Counted from the first letter of the stretch, positions 16,178 through 38,234 are shown. The stretch is DNA of 43,932 nucleotides from Deltaproteobacteria bacterium (GCA_021162935.1 JAGGXR010000035.1:1-43932); one strand, 5' to 3'. A program made the numbers and translations. The notes: generated by a model not told the origin, from the letters alone.

Positions 16178-16201
16178 CCGCCCTGGGTGGATGCGGCCGT
16201 C

Positions 16202-19200
16202 ATGTCTGATCGTCGAAGTTTCTCGTCGTTTCTCATCGCGTTCATTGTGTTCGCTGCTGCCGCAGCCGTGTCTCAGGCTCTGCTGCTTCGTGAGAGTCTC
16301 GTCAGTTTTCACGGCACGGAACTGACCATTGGCGCCTTCTATGGCTCGTACTTCTTGTGGATTGCACTTGGGGCTCTCGTCTGCAAACGGGTCGTTTCTC
16401 GGTCGGGGCCGGGGCCGGTTTTTCTGTGGTCCAGTGCGGCCTATGGTCTGACCCTTGTTGTCGGACTGCTGATCGTCCGTTCCTGGAAGGTCCTGCTTGG
16501 GGTCGGCCCCCTCGTTTTTTTGCCGCTTGAAACATCTCTGGTGGGCGTGGCCCTGGGCACGGCCGGGCCCGCCTTTTTGGTGGGATTTGTGTTTCCCGCT
16601 GCTGCTTCGCTTCTTTCTGACCGGCGGGATTCGGTGGGGTTGGCCTATGTGCTGGAGGCTTCGGGGAGTCTGGCCGGAGGGCTGTTCTTTTCATTTGTTT
16701 TGGCCACGCATCTTCGGGTCTCCACGGCGTTGGCCATCGTCGGGATCGCCGGGGCCCTGTCGTTCGTGGTGCTGTCCTGGTCGCGACGAAGATGTCGGTT
16801 CGTTGTCGGCGGCCTGCTCTATGCGGTTTTGTGGCTTGCGACACTATTCGGGCCCGGGCAGGCTTTCGATCGTCGAAGTGAATCGATCCGCTGGAACAGC
16901 CTGCAGCGCGGGTATGTGCTCAAAACAGTCGAGTACAGTCCGTACGGGCATCTCGCGTTGGGGAAGACCGAACGGGGCGACCAGTTCGGCCTGTTCGTCG
17001 ATGGGGTGCAGGTCGATTCCTTTCCAGATCCGCGCCGCTTTGGAGAACAGGCGGCCCATCTTTTGGCGCAAGCGCCCCAGGCCAGGCGGGTCCTGTTGAT
17101 CGGAGGCGGGCAGACCGGGCTGCTGTCCGCGCTGCTTCTTTCGAATCGGATCGACCATGTGGATCTGGTGCTCCAGGACCCATGGGAACTCGCCTTGGTG
17201 CGGCCCCACCTGGCACGGACGGATCGAGCGGCGCTCGATGACCTGAGGGTGACGGTCCATTTGACGGACCCGAGGCGTGCCGTTGCGGACCTGGTTCGAA
17301 AGCGTCGGGCCGGGACGATTGCCAGCTATGGGCTGGTCGTGGGACTGACGGCGCGACCAACCACCATTGCGGAAAACCGATTGTTCACGGTCGAGTATCT
17401 GCGTACGGTCAGCCAACTCATGCTTTCCGGAGTCTACGTTCAGTTCTTTTCCCGGGATGAGGTTGCCTATGTGCCGAAGGAGGAACGGCTCGCCCTTGGG
17501 TCCATATACCACAGCCTCGCGGCCGTGTTTGCAAACGTGTCGGTGGCCACGGGGCGCTTCCATTACTTTGTGGCTTCGGACGGCCTTGTTTCGGTGGACC
17601 CAACACTGTTGGCTCGCAGATATCGGTCCTTGGGCCTGGCCCGGTATCCCTATCCGCCCGATGCCTTTCCCGGCAAGAGCATCGACAAAGAGCGTTCCCG
17701 GTCCCTGGTCGCGTCGTTGCGTCGCACTGGTACGGCTCTGAACCGGGACGGATTGCCCATCACGGCCCTCTATGGACTCGCCTATCTCGGAAGAATTTTC
17801 CGATCCAGTCTCACCGCAGTGCTTCGGAAGCTCGATCGAACAGGCCACAAGATCGTCTGGGCCATTCTTTTGGCTCTCATGGCCATCGTGTTTGTACGTC
17901 CTCTGTCCGATCCTGAACCTCATCGGGACCGGGTTCGGCTCATTGCCTGGTCGGTCGGGATGGTGGGCTTTGTGGCCATGGCGCTCCAGGTGGTCCTCTT
18001 GGCTTCGTTTCAGAGTCGCTTCGGGTCCTTGTACCGCCAGATGGGCCTGCTTTTGGGCGCATCCATGGCGGGCCTGGCGATTGGTGGCCTGGCAGGCCGT
18101 TGGGGGTTCGCAAGGCTGCGCGGCCTCCGGGTGGGCCTGGCATTGTTCGGCCTGGTTGGGCTGTCCTTCGTGCTGGGAGTCTGGTCCTTGATCCTGCCGA
18201 GGCTCCTCGTAGCTGGGGCGTGGTGGTGGTGGATGCTCTTTGCCCTGGTTTCGTCGGTCCTGACAGGTGCGGCATTTCCTGGAGCCGCTGCTGTGCGTGA
18301 TCCACGATCGTCTGACCCGGCGGGTACGGCATCTGTCCTCGATGCGTCGGACCACCTTGGGGCTGCGGTTGGTGGTGCCCTGGGCGGCCTGGTTTTGGCT
18401 CCGGTTTTGGGTACGGTATCCACCTGTCGGCTGTTGGCGGCAGCCTCCCTGGCCGCCGGTTCGATGGTGGGATTCGAGCCGGTCCTGTCGAAGTTGCGTT
18501 CGGTGGGGCCTGCCAAGCGTCTGAGCTTTCCCTGGCGCAATCTGTCTTGGCGATTGGCATTGGTCGTTGCGGTCACCTGGGCCGGGGCCTGGGCGGCGAG
18601 TCGGCCCAACCGGAGACCCCGTCGCGGGTTCGTTCCGAGTCCCACCCTGGCGAGGGTGGTGGAACGAGCCAGAGCCAGCGGGTACCGGATCGAGGAGAAA
18701 GCGCGTCCGTTTTCACATGTGCGCCTCATACGTCAGGGGACGCTGCAGGCCGTGGTTTTCTCCACCCGGCAGACCGCTCCCGACGTCCGGGGATACGCGG
18801 GGCCCATCGAATTGGTGGTCACCATGGACGTGAGCGGACGCATCGACGATGTGACGCTGGGTGAAAATCAGGAAACCCCATCATACGTTTCGATGCTGCC
18901 GAAATGGCTGACTCGATTCAGGGGGCTGCCCATCGGGCACCCCATCTTGGGCCATGGAGGCATCGATACGATCACCGGGGCCACGGTCAGTATGCACGCC
19001 ATCGAATCGATCCTAGCGCGATCCCGCGCGATGGCCTATCGACACCTCTTGGGAAAACAGGATCGATCGGCGCAGACGACCCCGTCGGGTGGCTGGTTTG
19101 GCAAGCCCATGTTTTGGGCGGTTTTGGGCTTTATCCTGTTGCTCGGGATCGGCTATCTCCGGCAGGGATTGGTCGCCAGACTGGTGGGGATGGGGTTTTC

Positions 19201-19819
19201 GTTCGTGGTGCTTGGGGTGTGGTTGAACGTGCCTTTGACCATGGTGGACGTGGGGCTGCTGGCATTCGGCCATCTTCCAACAGCGGCCGACAAGGCGGCC
19301 GTGGCGCTTGGAGCTCTGCTGCTCGCCCTGCTGTTTGGTCAGGTGTGGTGCGGGTCGATTTGTCCTTTTGGTGCGTTGCAGGAGTTCATCTGGCTGGCCG
19401 TTCACCCATCAGGCCTATGGGCGGAGGCGCGTCAGGCACAGTTCGGTCCAGGAGAGCACGCGGTGGAGCAGCGTGCCCGGTACGTGAAGTTCGTTTTTGC
19501 CACCCTCGTGCTCGGTTCGTTTTTCCTGTCGAGACGCCAAGAGTTCCTCCTCTTCGATCCCATGGTCTGGACGTTTCGGCTGCAGCTCACCTGGGCCCGT
19601 GGTCTGCTGTTAGCCGCCGTGCTTGTGACAGCACTGTTCTATTTTCGGCCTTGGTGTCGCTACGTTTGCCCGGTTGGCGCGCTGATGGCGTTGACGAACA
19701 AGATTGCACTGCTGGATCGATGGACCATGAGACGTCGGGTCAATCAATGCGACCTCGGGGTAGAGACAGCCAAAGATCTGGACTGCATTCGTTGCAATCG
19801 CTGCATGAAGAGGCGATAA
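16202..19819 (+). CDS. Membrane fusion: spermidine-synthase-like module + FMN-binding domain + NosR/NapH-like Fe-S domain
   Basis: 1205 residues from ATG 16202; GTG 16187 is an alternative. (1) Residues ~1-220: about six or seven TM segments. (2) ~230-530: Rossmann domain like spermidine synthase, with RRVLLIGGGQTGLLSALL, but the usual acidic site (SDSSDP, or SEPSNPW in membrane homologues) reads VVGLTARPTT, so aminopropyl transfer is unlikely. (3) ~540-790: a second set of TM segments. (4) ~815-945: FMN_bind domain with GYAGPIELVVTMD and the flavinylation motif D922-T-I-T-G-A-T928-V-S, Thr928 being the expected covalent FMN site. (5) ~960-1205: NapH/NosR-like polytopic domain with CGSICP (Cys1050, 1054), CRYVCP (Cys1152, 1156) and Cys1183, 1195, 1198, 1201. 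Electron transfer across or along the membrane is the likely role; donor and acceptor are unknown. The flavin transferase ApbE is not in this window. Confidence 0.85.
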   Translation: MSDRRSFSSFLIAFIVFAAAAAVSQALLLRESLVSFHGTELTIGAFYGSYFLWIALGALVCKRVVSRSGPGPVFLWSSAAYGLTLVVGLLIVRSWKVLLGVGPLVFLPLETSLVGVALGTAGPAFLVGFVFPAAASLLSDRRDSVGLAYVLEASGSLAGGLFFSFVLATHLRVSTALAIVGIAGALSFVVLSWSRRRCRFVVGGLLYAVLWLATLFGPGQAFDRRSESIRWNSLQRGYVLKTVEYSPYGHLALGKTERGDQFGLFVDGVQVDSFPDPRRFGEQAAHLLAQAPQARRVLLIGGGQTGLLSALLLSNRIDHVDLVLQDPWELALVRPHLARTDRAALDDLRVTVHLTDPRRAVADLVRKRRAGTIASYGLVVGLTARPTTIAENRLFTVEYLRTVSQLMLSGVYVQFFSRDEVAYVPKEERLALGSIYHSLAAVFANVSVATGRFHYFVASDGLVSVDPTLLARRYRSLGLARYPYPPDAFPGKSIDKERSRSLVASLRRTGTALNRDGLPITALYGLAYLGRIFRSSLTAVLRKLDRTGHKIVWAILLALMAIVFVRPLSDPEPHRDRVRLIAWSVGMVGFVAMALQVVLLASFQSRFGSLYRQMGLLLGASMAGLAIGGLAGRWGFARLRGLRVGLALFGLVGLSFVLGVWSLILPRLLVAGAWWWWMLFALVSSVLTGAAFPGAAAVRDPRSSDPAGTASVLDASDHLGAAVGGALGGLVLAPVLGTVSTCRLLAAASLAAGSMVGFEPVLSKLRSVGPAKRLSFPWRNLSWRLALVVAVTWAGAWAASRPNRRPRRGFVPSPTLARVVERARASGYRIEEKARPFSHVRLIRQGTLQAVVFSTRQTAPDVRGYAGPIELVVTMDVSGRIDDVTLGENQETPSYVSMLPKWLTRFRGLPIGHPILGHGGIDTITGATVSMHAIESILARSRAMAYRHLLGKQDRSAQTTPSGGWFGKPMFWAVLGFILLLGIGYLRQGLVARLVGMGFSFVVLGVWLNVPLTMVDVGLLAFGHLPTAADKAAVALGALLLALLFGQVWCGSICPFGALQEFIWLAVHPSGLWAEARQAQFGPGEHAVEQRARYVKFVFATLVLGSFFLSRRQEFLLFDPMVWTFRLQLTWARGLLLAAVLVTALFYFRPWCRYVCPVGALMALTNKIALLDRWTMRRRVNQCDLGVETAKDLDCIRCNRCMKRR

Positions 19820-34616: not shown

Positions 34617-34697
34617 GCTGGCGCTGTGTTCCTGTCGCGCCGAGGCGATACAAGGAGGCGCGGCGCAGCATGAGTGCATCCTGTGACGGAGAAAACA

Positions 34698-37600
34698 GTG
34701 ACGGAACATTCGGGTGAAAGCATGTTCAGGCGGGCGGCCGCGGGCCTGGGGGTTCTGGCTTTCCTGTCGGGAGCTGCTGGTCTCGCCTACGAGGTGATCT
34801 GGACTCGGCTCATGGAGTTGGTGTTCGGATACACCCAGGCCGCGGTCAGCGCGTCGGTGGCCTCGTACATGGCGGGTCTTGCCCTGGGCGCGTTCCTGGC
34901 GGGACGTCGGGTGGACAGGATTCGAAATCCCATATTCGTGTATGGGTTCCTGGAGTTGATCGTTGGGTTCTATAGCCTCGGAGTACCGTCTTTGCTCAAC
35001 GGGGCCACGGGTATCTATTCGATTTTGGGCGTCAGCCCGAGTTCCCTCTCTCTGACCCTCTGGCGGATGGTGGCCTGTTTCGTGATTCTGGCCCCTGCAA
35101 CCATGGCCATGGGAGCCACGCTGCCGCTGCTCGTTCGTGCCTTGGACAGCGCCAGCGCATCCGAGAAAACGGGCCGGACGGCAGCGTTCGTCTACGGCAT
35201 CAACACGGCCGGGGCGGTGATCGGTGCCCTGCTGACCGGTCTGGTACTCTTTCCTGTCGCCGGTCTCCGCATTCCCATTTGGCTTGCAGCGGGAACCAGT
35301 ATTTCGGTGGGGTTCGGGGCGATGCTGCTCGGCCGACGAGGTTTCCTGGTCCGTTCCATTGCAGATGGTCACGAGCCGCCTCGGGCGAGGTCGGACGAGG
35401 CCGACGATCAGGGGTCGGGCATTTTGAGTTCGGATGAAGAGGACGATCTGTCCGCTCTTTCTTGGAGCCCTGCACGATGGACGCCGGCAACCTGGACGCA
35501 CGTGGCCGCGGTCAGTGCTGCGTTTTTTGGGGGCGTGGCTTCTTTGGGGAACGAGGTGCTGTGGAGCCGCGTGTTTGGCCTGCTCCTCGACGGAACCGTG
35601 TACGGCTTTTCCGTGCTGCTGGGAGGATTTTTGCTTGGTCTCGCCCTGGGCTCCCTGGCGATTTCTCCCTTGCTCGACCGTCGTCGTCTCGACCTGTGGG
35701 ATCTGCTTGTTGGGCTGCACCTTATGGCCGGCCTGTCCGCGTTCGTGCTCATGGCGCTCGTGTCCGTGATGCCGGAAATGGCGGCGAAAATCATTGGAAG
35801 CGGGCTGTCGGTACGCAAGGGGTTCTATCTCAAGTCCATGCTCGCTATGGCCGTGTTGCTGCTACCCACCGTGTTTTATGGTGCCGCTTTGCCCACGGCG
35901 ATTCGTCTGGCCGCTTCGGTCCAGGATGTCGCCAAGGCTACCGGGAGGCTGTCCGCCGCGAGTACGCTCGGTGGGATCGTGGGGGCCGTGTTCGTCGGTC
36001 TGGTGCTCATGAGCCTCGGGTTGCGCCTGAGCCAGGCCGGCATCATTGCTACTGGCATGAGTTTTCTTGCCGCGGTCATTGTCGCCTGGATCGGAATCGG
36101 TGTTCGCGCCTGGTCGATTCGCCCAGACCGTCGATTTTGGTTCCGAACCGCAGCCCCGAGGATCGGACTGCCCATCATCGTATTTTTTGGCATCGCCGCA
36201 CTTCATCCGGATTTCAAACCGGTTCATCTCGTTCAGGCGCGGTACGCCATCGAGGACTACGGCAAGGAATTGGACTATCGCATCCAGGGAATGGGACGCG
36301 CGAATCTGGCCTTCGAGGCAGAGGGCAAGCAGACCATTGTCACGGTCCGGCGTAGCAAGGATGGCGGTTTCAGGCTGCGCAACAACGGTTTGAACGAGGC
36401 GTACCATTCCCTGACGGCGCCTCATTTCTCGGACGTCATTTTCTACCTTGGTGTCCTCGGGTACATCGTGCAGCCTCAGGCCGGCACAGCGCTGCTCGTT
36501 GGGCTCGGCAGCGGTGGCACGGCCGAGAGCCTGCTCCAAACGAACCTGAGGCGTCTCATGGTGGTGGAATTGGAACCGAAGGTGGTCGAGGCGTCGAGAT
36601 TCATCTATGCCAGGATCGGGGACAAGAACAGTCCCCATCCCCTCAATGACCCCAGGGCTACCCTGGTCGTGGACGACGCCCGCAACTATCTGCTGCGGAG
36701 GGCACACACGGGTCGGCCCGGATTCGATCTCGTTGTGTCCCAACCGTCCCACCCATGGCTTGCGGGTATGTCGGCTCTCTACACCGTGCAGTTTTTCCGG
36801 CTCGTCCGGCGGAACCTGAGCCCTCATGGTATCTACTGCCAGTGGGTGAACCTGTTCCGTATGGACGAACCCTCCTTGCGGTCGATCCTGGCGGCTGCCA
36901 CGCGGGTCTTCCAATCGGTTCATGCCTTCCGGCCGGATTCGAATTCACTGCTTCTCGTATGCAGCAAGGCGCAGCGACCCATCAACCTCCGTGTCATGAA
37001 GCAGCATCTGGACGAGCCGCATCTGGCGGCGGCCTTCCGTCAGCGATCCCTATCGCTGCTGGATATTTTGCTCATGTACGCCTTTGGTCCAAGCCGAGCC
37101 CGTCGTCTGGCCGCTGGGGCCAGACCGAACGAAGACCTGGAGCCCGTCGTCGAGATGCGTCTGCCCTGGCAGAGCCACAACGAAAAGTTCGATGTGCGTC
37201 GATTCGTGACCCGGAACCATCTGCCTTTTGGGCTCGAATCCGCAGACCTGGATCCCCTTTTCGACCGTACGGACTTTTGGATGCGACTGGCCACTGCCGC
37301 GGTCCAGGCGGTGGAAGCGGGCAAGTTGAGTTTTAGGCGCGGACGCGCTATGCTGGCCCGGATTGCCAAGGAGCATGGGCTGGGCGATGACGGCCTGCGC
37401 CTCGAAGCGCGGCTACGGCTTCGGCGTGGGGATGAAGATGGCGCACTTTCTTTGTACCATCGAGCAGCGGCCAAGGGTGATTTCCTCTCCGCCTACCAGG
37501 AGGCCAAGCTTCGACTGGAGCGGGGTGAGACGGATCAGGCGGTCAGGCTGTTCGGATCGCTTGTGGACGGACCGTTCGATTTTCGCGCCCGCGTTGGTTT

Positions 37601-38234
37601 GGCCGAGGCGCTCGCAGACCGGGCGTCGCTTCGGGCACGGGCCCTGCTGGAGTTTGTCCTGGATGCCCCGGCTATGGACGTGCCCGAGGAAGCTTGGAAT
37701 CGCGCCCTTCTCCTTTTGGCCCGCATGGAGCGCTCAGAGGGGAACCTGGGGCGTGCGGAGCAGCTTGTTCGTCGGCATCTGCAATGGCAGCCGGATTCGG
37801 CCGATGGCCGGTTCCTGCTCGGCTCCATCCAGGATATGGAGGGCCTGTTCGACGAGGCCAAGGACCAGTACAGCATCGCGGTTCGCAGACGATGGGTGCT
37901 CGCAGAGGCCTATTCGAATACCGGCAAGATTGCGGCCGACCATGGCCATCTCGATCGCGCATGGCGCTACTATGAAAAGGCCACGGACGCCGATCCAGGC
38001 TATGCCCCGCCATACAAGTGGATGGCCCGGGCCATGCGTCGGGCCGGTGGGTATCGGAAGATGCTCGACGTGATCGACAGGCTGAAGCTTCGTTCCCGGG
38101 AGGATGTGCGATCCTGGGTCGAGCAGTTCCATCGACAGGACACCGTGGCTCAACGGTTGGGCAGGGTTTTGGCGGAGATTGATCGAGAGCAGGGTACTGA
38201 TTCTGCAAAACGCTCTGGCACTATTGGCGGGTGA
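34698..38234 (+). CDS. Fused membrane spermidine-synthase-like protein with C-terminal TPRs
   Basis: 1178 residues from GTG 34698, selected because GGAG lies six bases upstream. The first ~500 residues hold about twelve TM segments in two halves, like the transporter-like region of fused spermidine-synthase/MFS proteins (AFLSGAAGLAYEVIWTRLME, PATMAMGATLPLL, YGINTAGAVIGALL). Residues ~530-760 are the SAM-type Rossmann domain: LLVGLGSGGTAESLL, VVELEPKVVEA, VVDDARNYLL. Where true spermidine synthases have the catalytic Asp (SDSSDP), this has VVSQPSHPWLAGM, the pattern of the membrane-fused subgroup; polyamine synthesis is therefore doubtful. Residues ~860-1178 are TPR-like helical repeats (LSLYHRAAAKGDFLSAYQEA, DQYSIAVRRRWVLAEAYSNT). 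The substrate is unknown. It is a relative of the module in the redox fusion at 16202-19819. Confidence 0.87.
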   Translation: MTEHSGESMFRRAAAGLGVLAFLSGAAGLAYEVIWTRLMELVFGYTQAAVSASVASYMAGLALGAFLAGRRVDRIRNPIFVYGFLELIVGFYSLGVPSLLNGATGIYSILGVSPSSLSLTLWRMVACFVILAPATMAMGATLPLLVRALDSASASEKTGRTAAFVYGINTAGAVIGALLTGLVLFPVAGLRIPIWLAAGTSISVGFGAMLLGRRGFLVRSIADGHEPPRARSDEADDQGSGILSSDEEDDLSALSWSPARWTPATWTHVAAVSAAFFGGVASLGNEVLWSRVFGLLLDGTVYGFSVLLGGFLLGLALGSLAISPLLDRRRLDLWDLLVGLHLMAGLSAFVLMALVSVMPEMAAKIIGSGLSVRKGFYLKSMLAMAVLLLPTVFYGAALPTAIRLAASVQDVAKATGRLSAASTLGGIVGAVFVGLVLMSLGLRLSQAGIIATGMSFLAAVIVAWIGIGVRAWSIRPDRRFWFRTAAPRIGLPIIVFFGIAALHPDFKPVHLVQARYAIEDYGKELDYRIQGMGRANLAFEAEGKQTIVTVRRSKDGGFRLRNNGLNEAYHSLTAPHFSDVIFYLGVLGYIVQPQAGTALLVGLGSGGTAESLLQTNLRRLMVVELEPKVVEASRFIYARIGDKNSPHPLNDPRATLVVDDARNYLLRRAHTGRPGFDLVVSQPSHPWLAGMSALYTVQFFRLVRRNLSPHGIYCQWVNLFRMDEPSLRSILAAATRVFQSVHAFRPDSNSLLLVCSKAQRPINLRVMKQHLDEPHLAAAFRQRSLSLLDILLMYAFGPSRARRLAAGARPNEDLEPVVEMRLPWQSHNEKFDVRRFVTRNHLPFGLESADLDPLFDRTDFWMRLATAAVQAVEAGKLSFRRGRAMLARIAKEHGLGDDGLRLEARLRLRRGDEDGALSLYHRAAAKGDFLSAYQEAKLRLERGETDQAVRLFGSLVDGPFDFRARVGLAEALADRASLRARALLEFVLDAPAMDVPEEAWNRALLLLARMERSEGNLGRAEQLVRRHLQWQPDSADGRFLLGSIQDMEGLFDEAKDQYSIAVRRRWVLAEAYSNTGKIAADHGHLDRAWRYYEKATDADPGYAPPYKWMARAMRRAGGYRKMLDVIDRLKLRSREDVRSWVEQFHRQDTVAQRLGRVLAEIDREQGTDSAKRSGTIGG

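Follow-up and report, generated by a model that had tools for sequence, protein, structure and literature searches.

A fused MFS/spermidine-synthase-like, FMN_bind and NapH-like membrane protein and its probable link to an exported AmmeMemoRadiSam system

The window analysed here is the whole stretch of 43,932 nucleotides from Deltaproteobacteria bacterium (GCA_021162935.1, JAGGXR010000035.1:1-43932), and the gene in question occupies positions 16202-19819 on its + strand. The product joins, in one chain, a major facilitator superfamily (MFS)-type membrane domain holding a spermidine-synthase-like Rossmann domain (together the N-module), a domain for covalent flavin mononucleotide (FMN), and a NosR/NapH-like iron-sulfur (Fe-S) membrane domain. 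We conclude that the gene probably encodes an inner-membrane electron-transfer protein for an exported AmmeMemoRadiSam (AMS) system. Because the fusion forms one operon with AMS genes in many bacteria, a role in moving electrons across the membrane for the AMS system is probable; the protein of the window is assigned this function by homology, since its own gene is not beside AMS genes.

Linkage of the fusion with exported MEMO and AMMECR1

Clustering of the genes neighbouring the fusion at 23 loci gave two recurrent families, present in 14 of them. NCBIfam identified the first as the AmmeMemoRadiSam radical S-adenosylmethionine (SAM) enzyme AmrS (TIGR04337, E 1e-118) and the second as AmmeMemoRadiSam B (MEMO) fused to A (AMMECR1). 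When all loci were tallied by tblastn, AmrS, MEMO, and AMMECR1 all adjoined the fusion in 23 loci, of which 14 were gammaproteobacterial (some from close relatives) and 9 were from Myxococcota. In 6 further loci, which end at contig edges, MEMO/AMMECR1 adjoined the fusion, and 20 loci, including the window and its order, had no AMS neighbours. By chance, AmrS would be expected within 10 kb of less than 1 % of loci (about 2 AmrS genes per 5 Mb). Where contigs extend far enough to judge, most lineages have the fusion in one operon with AmrS and exported MEMO-AMMECR1. The gene order was fusion, small single-transmembrane (TM) protein, AmrS, and MEMO-AMMECR1 in Gammaproteobacteria, and AmrS, MEMO-AMMECR1, and fusion in Myxococcota. 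In three Myxococcota contigs, AmrS also lies next to an N-module that has no FMN/NapH, a further point in favour of the AMS tie. An earlier note made from the DNA of the window by itself (the sequence-only reading) had missed these conserved partners because the lineage of the window lost the linkage.

The conserved small protein between the fusion and AmrS, of about 85 residues, was observed in 11 gammaproteobacterial loci (L129:9704-9970 and equivalents). It ends ...WRRIDxE...LSxHEAxWYH, and no NCBIfam family matched it.

Linked MEMO proteins were tested at 24 loci, and every one begins with a signal peptide or lipobox. Of 30 genomes from the same class that lack the module, 20 had MEMO; none of the 14 strong matches was exported, and 2 of the 30 genomes carried exported but divergent MEMO-like proteins. 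Of 24 genomes that carry the fusion or module, at least 17 had an exported MEMO, versus 2 of the 30 without (Fisher p about 1e-6, in a test that ignores the relatedness of the genomes, with export judged by a simple hydropathy score).

On another contig (C155), the genome of the window (G000) carries adjacent genes for AmrS and for MEMO and AMMECR1 as lipoproteins. The domain order of this MEMO (L182:3971-5035) is circularly permuted relative to human MEMO1: residues 50-127 match the C-terminal part of the human protein and residues 161-351 the N-terminal part, and in the profile match positions 191-270 come before positions 1-189. The stretches holding the metal ligands of human MEMO1 (PHAGY, GPSH, and TICG) are kept; the iron/copper ligands of the human protein are H49, H81, and C244 (PMC11081632). 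The separate AMMECR1 (L182:5118-5891, lipobox LLVGC) lies directly downstream. The apbE gene that the sequence-only reading had proposed to look for elsewhere in the genome was also found, as an ApbE flavin transferase at G000:C110:6642-7535 (E 3.5e-84).

These linkage data bear on another reading, in which the fusion is a NosR/RdhC-type quinol-FMN conduit for a different periplasmic oxidoreductase and the AMS adjacency stems from indirect maturation or regulation, or from housekeeping. NapH-like conduits are modular and exchange partners (PMC8238504), the AMS linkage is not seen in the order of the window, and in genus g3 of that order the copy in one genome (G002) adjoins an RdhA-like Fe-S protein. 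However, the sister species G005 has no such gene next to its fusion, and an RdhA-like query gave no more than a weak QueG-like match in the genome of the window. Furthermore, the AMS linkage recurs in two phyla with different gene orders, which no other neighbour family does across phyla. We consider such a conduit for another oxidoreductase unlikely. Its more specific form, a reductive dehalogenase partnership of the RdhC kind, was rejected, as the RdhA-like gene precedes the fusion in G002 only. In that species the gene (L031:959-2410) encodes a membrane-anchored Fe-S protein and lies upstream of a split fusion; relatives in family f11 are found near a separate FMN_bind/NosR protein (e.g. 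G068:C125).

Architecture and predicted topology

The features of the gene and its product are as follows.
16202..19819, +: whole fusion gene, 1205 aa; ATG at 16202, in-frame GTG at 16187 possible; full-length homologues
16202..16786, +: MFS-type membrane domain, first half, TM1-6, residues 1-195 (AlphaFold model, VIA-align, family hydropathy)
16799..16855, +: additional TM7, N-terminal to the inserted domain, residues 200-218 (mean hydropathy 1.95, 33 homologues)
16892..17746, +: spermidine-synthase-fold domain, residues 231-515, Asp pair replaced, predicted periplasmic (profiles, fold, alignment, topology)
17840..17896, +: additional TM8, C-terminal to the inserted domain, residues 547-565 (mean hydropathy 1.91, 33 homologues)
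17897..18487, +: MFS-type membrane domain, second half, residues 566-762 (model, VIA-align, hydropathy)
18791..19015, +: FMN_bind domain, residues 864-938, predicted periplasmic (Pfam E 2e-8, fold and profile matches, topology)
18983..18985, +: predicted flavinylation site Thr928 of the (S/T)GAT motif (occupied by Thr or Ser in the aligned homologues)
19103..19717, +: NosR/NapH-like membrane Fe-S domain, residues 968-1172 (profiles, hydropathy)
19349..19366, +: CX3CP motif 1, C1050, C1054, P1055 (invariant in alignments)
19655..19672, +: CX3CP motif 2, C1152, C1156, P1157 (invariant in alignments)
19748..19804, +: C-terminal CX11CX2CX2C, C1183, C1195, C1198, C1201, one predicted 4Fe-4S cluster, cytoplasmic side

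Residues 1-789 were modelled by AlphaFold on 29 homologues with a mean pLDDT of 90.5 and a pTM of 0.91. VIA-align matched the model to MFS transporters over residues 2-763 (VMAT1 8tgn, Z 27.7) and to spermidine synthase over about 231-515 (Z about 24-26). Since the two folds lie in one chain, the N-module as modelled is an MFS fold with a spermidine-synthase domain set between its halves. The top Foldseek matches of the model were aminopropyltransferases (1uir, E 7e-10). Among profiles, PRK03612 of NCBIfam (membrane spermidine synthase) spanned residues 11-411 (E 5e-25) and Spermine_synth of Pfam matched 289-408 (E 2.4e-4, just short of the Pfam cut-off), and NF037959 gave no match at E<=1. 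The sequence-only reading had described a TM/Rossmann/TM module; its spermidine-synthase-like domain is in place, whereas the TM parts add up to a whole MFS fold instead of a few helices.

In the alignment with a solved aminopropyltransferase, its catalytic segment IIMDLTDP, which holds the Asp pair (D-x-x-D-P), faces VVGLTARP of the window, with Gly and Ala in place of the two Asp. This alignment bears out the earlier proposal that GLTARPTT marks a lost acidic catalytic site, and none of the aligned fusion homologues has regained the Asp pair. The GG(G) nucleotide loop is retained in many members of the family.

In the second half of the chain, Pfam found Fer4_5 twice (E 1e-13), and the C-terminal part of the NCBIfam NosR family matched residues 1043-1183 (E 2e-15). 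T928 sits within TITGATVS. Fer4_5 and the two CX3CP motifs were present in 23 of 23 members, and nearly all complete homologues keep the flavinylation Thr/Ser, the four CX3CP Cys, and the four C-terminal Cys; L158, which lacks one C-terminal Cys, and L175, which lacks the C-terminal set, are the exceptions. The FMN_bind domain with an intact motif at Thr928 and the NosR/NapH-like Fe-S membrane domain were therefore read correctly from the sequence, and the Pfam and NCBIfam searches placed all domains where they had been assigned. The label polyferredoxin was too strong, because the C-terminus has one four-Cys set plus the two CX3CP motifs, and not the double-cluster C-terminal ferredoxin of NosR.

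The topology was predicted from loop charge and hydropathy over 33 homologues. The strong inner loops carry 3.4, 2.5, 4.1, 2.8, and 3.8 Lys plus Arg and the outer loops 0.5-1.2, alternating according to the positive-inside rule with two weak inner loops, and the two extra hydrophobic spans beyond the MFS set (200-218 and 547-565) flank the synthase-like domain. This pattern predicts an inside position for the CX3CP motifs and the four C-terminal Cys, and an outside position for the synthase-like and FMN_bind domains.

Elsewhere in the window, a second MFS/spermidine-synthase-like protein with C-terminal tetratricopeptide (TPR) repeats is encoded at 34674-38234 (+). It exceeds the NF037959 cut-off (47.0 bits versus 40); a link to the fusion was not sought. 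The neighbours of the fusion in the window (kinase, TPR, and FG-GAP genes) are not conserved with it, and a functional meaning of this neighbourhood was rejected.

Distribution, conserved core, and splitting of the fusion

The frame of 1205 codons contains no internal stop. A full-length homologue from the same family, also in one frame, shares 41 % identity (its N-terminus is cut by a contig edge), and more fusions were found in the order of the window, then in the class (G250, G199), and elsewhere in the phylum (G567, G350, G327, G474, G370, G374, G343, G406, G486). Among Gammaproteobacteria, the fusion occurs in Sedimenticola, Chromatiaceae (Thiodictyon and Lamprocystis), and the symbionts of Lamellibrachia and Escarpia. 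The full-length homologues show 30-41 % identity, with hosts in several Myxococcota families and in Gammaproteobacteria. Because these independent full-length homologues are each in one frame, the fusion is not an artefact, and a frameshift or misassembly joining separate genes was ruled out. The open chain and its integrity, both claimed in the sequence-only reading, thus hold, and the search for the same architecture in other genomes revealed a widespread family and no singleton.

In an unrooted tree of the N-module, the fused proteins fell into few clades, with 4 label changes against 13.6 in shuffles, and the order of the window formed one clade of four. The N-module occurs by itself in other families. 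Within the order, the Rossmann part is degenerate in G006, G010, and G003 and gone in G007 and G009, and FMN/NapH is retained in each. As the Rossmann domain decays while FMN/NapH persists, the redox half is the conserved core in this order and the Rossmann domain is not. The earlier interpretation of the protein was right about a coherent fusion with a flavin motif and a lost acid pair; its idea of the Rossmann domain as a sensor found support limited to the acid loss, in a domain that relatives lose or let degenerate while keeping the FMN/Fe-S half.

At five loci from other families of the order (L035:7388-10729, L032, L039, L036, and L038), the synthase domain was observed to be decayed or lost, leaving MFS remnants, FMN_bind, and NapH. 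In family f4, a gene for a conserved small secreted protein of no known family adjoins the fusion (L035:10794-11369, L036:3426-3971, L039:3419-3949, and L033:3254-3799). These proteins were compared with the small secreted proteins near the standalone module of f11, and no mutual homology was found.

The same decay argues against placing the functional centre in the N-module, as a transporter or periplasmic group-transferase with a SAM-like ligand made by AmrS, which FMN/Fe-S would power or sense. AmrS does adjoin an N-module without FMN/NapH in three Myxococcota contigs (G049:C408, G199:C259, and G346:C187), and both the retained nucleotide loop and the fold, a complete MFS plus synthase, agree with such a role. 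However, it is the Rossmann domain that is degenerate or lost where FMN/Fe-S is kept, and the catalytic Asp pair is lost across the whole family; we regard this role as more doubtful than a conduit for another oxidoreductase. A membrane-bound polyamine synthase with an accessory redox tail is highly improbable, since residues 231-515 do match aminopropyltransferases best by both sequence and fold, but both catalytic Asp are replaced and the domain is predicted to be periplasmic, away from cytosolic decarboxylated SAM and putrescine.

In genus g3, an A10 run in the linker to FMN_bind (GAAAAAAAAAAG and CAAAAAAAAAAG) divides the fusion between two reading frames; the run is located at L031:5044-5053 (G002) and L034:2714-2723 (G005). 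The fusion would be regained by a -1 shift at A AAA AAG or by one extra A. A10 is the sole A/T run of at least 8 in 31 kb and 5 kb of DNA of 65-68 % GC. Because the run is unique in the region and retained despite a diverged linker, programmed slippage or phase variation is likely, as judged from the sequence. The stability of RNA structure downstream of the slip site was not raised over shuffles (z -0.14 and -1.13). For the frame break in G217, no slip site was found, and it was taken as a lesion or assembly error.

Proposed function and comparison with known systems

NapH-like flavinylated proteins are considered to draw electrons from a donor, which in some cases is probably quinol, and to hand them by way of Fe-S and covalent FMN to a partner outside the cytosol; most of these proteins have no assigned partner or reaction yet (PMC8238504). 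PceC bears covalent FMN on the exocytoplasmic side (PMC5928378). On these precedents, we propose a route from a donor through Fe-S and FMN to exported MEMO-AMMECR1. T928 would receive its FMN from ApbE on the periplasmic side; the quinol pool or a donor in the cytosol would feed electrons into the Fe-S centres at the inner face, and from there they would reach FMN, which may pass them to the metal site of periplasmic MEMO (His, His, Cys) or to the substrate of MEMO. The MFS/synthase-like module, predicted to face the periplasm, may bind or move a substrate or dock MEMO-AMMECR1, and would no longer make polyamines.

Several points weigh against this AMS conduit. No contig in the order of the window shows the fusion beside AMS genes, so that the partnership of the window's protein rests on homology and co-presence in the genome. 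In G007 and G217, where all or part of the fusion is present, the MEMO found is of the cytosolic type only; G001 and G011 (65-70 % complete) show no MEMO. For the FMN/NapH half, the model reached an overall pLDDT of 78.7, which is of middling confidence. In which direction electrons flow, which residues bind the clusters, and what MEMO acts on are inferred, and because the AMS system has no assigned function, the explanation names a partner and not a reaction.

The protein resembles the NapH-like class (NosR; RdhC/PceC; Meheust et al. 2021) in several respects: a single chain runs from FMN_bind into a Fer4_5 membrane domain and carries the (S/T)GAT motif and two CX3CP motifs, the genome encodes ApbE, and FMN is predicted outside. 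It differs in the module of about 780 residues in front, in having one C-terminal four-Cys set only, and in the partner genes of the fusion, which are AmmeMemoRadiSam and not nos, rdh, nirS, or exaA. With NF037959 (fused MFS/spermidine synthase) and PRK03612 it shares a membrane domain plus a spermidine-synthase fold, and the homologue of the Lamellibrachia symbiont exceeds the NF037959 cut-off (50.6 bits versus 40); unlike these families, the fusion lacks the catalytic Asp pair, runs on into FMN_bind and NapH, and has its synthase-like domain predicted in the periplasm. All three AmmeMemoRadiSam families (TIGR04335, TIGR04336, and TIGR04337) adjoin the fusion in relatives and are present in the genome of the window; unlike in the ordinary system, both MEMO and AMMECR1 are exported by a signal peptide or lipobox and are often fused, and a membrane conduit is added. 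The FMN_bind fold and flavinylation motif are shared with RnfG/NqrC subunits, but in the fusion they are part of a much longer chain, which has no Rnf/Nqr neighbours.

The literature searched, which did not cover the Memo analysis of Burroughs et al. 2019 (cited by PMC7159879), gave no account of the fusion family, its AMS tie, or exported MEMO-AMMECR1, in agreement with the earlier remark that the combination was not known as a described system. Each part is already known; the novelty, as judged from that literature, lies in the three features just named.

More tentatively, we suggest that there may be an exported branch of AmmeMemoRadiSam, comprising periplasmic MEMO-AMMECR1, a cytosolic radical SAM enzyme, a dedicated flavin/Fe-S conduit, and an MFS/pseudo-spermidine-synthase that handles the substrate. 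MEMO and AMMECR1 are conserved from archaea to man. With one NapH-like subfamily encoded alongside MEMO, AMMECR1, and AmrS, and with these MEMO proteins exported onto the face of the membrane that is predicted to carry the flavin, two open problems are tied together, the role of MEMO/AMMECR1 and the reactions of NapH-like flavinylated proteins. If true, the exported branch would be a new periplasmic redox pathway, and MEMO and AMMECR1 would gain a testable redox role.

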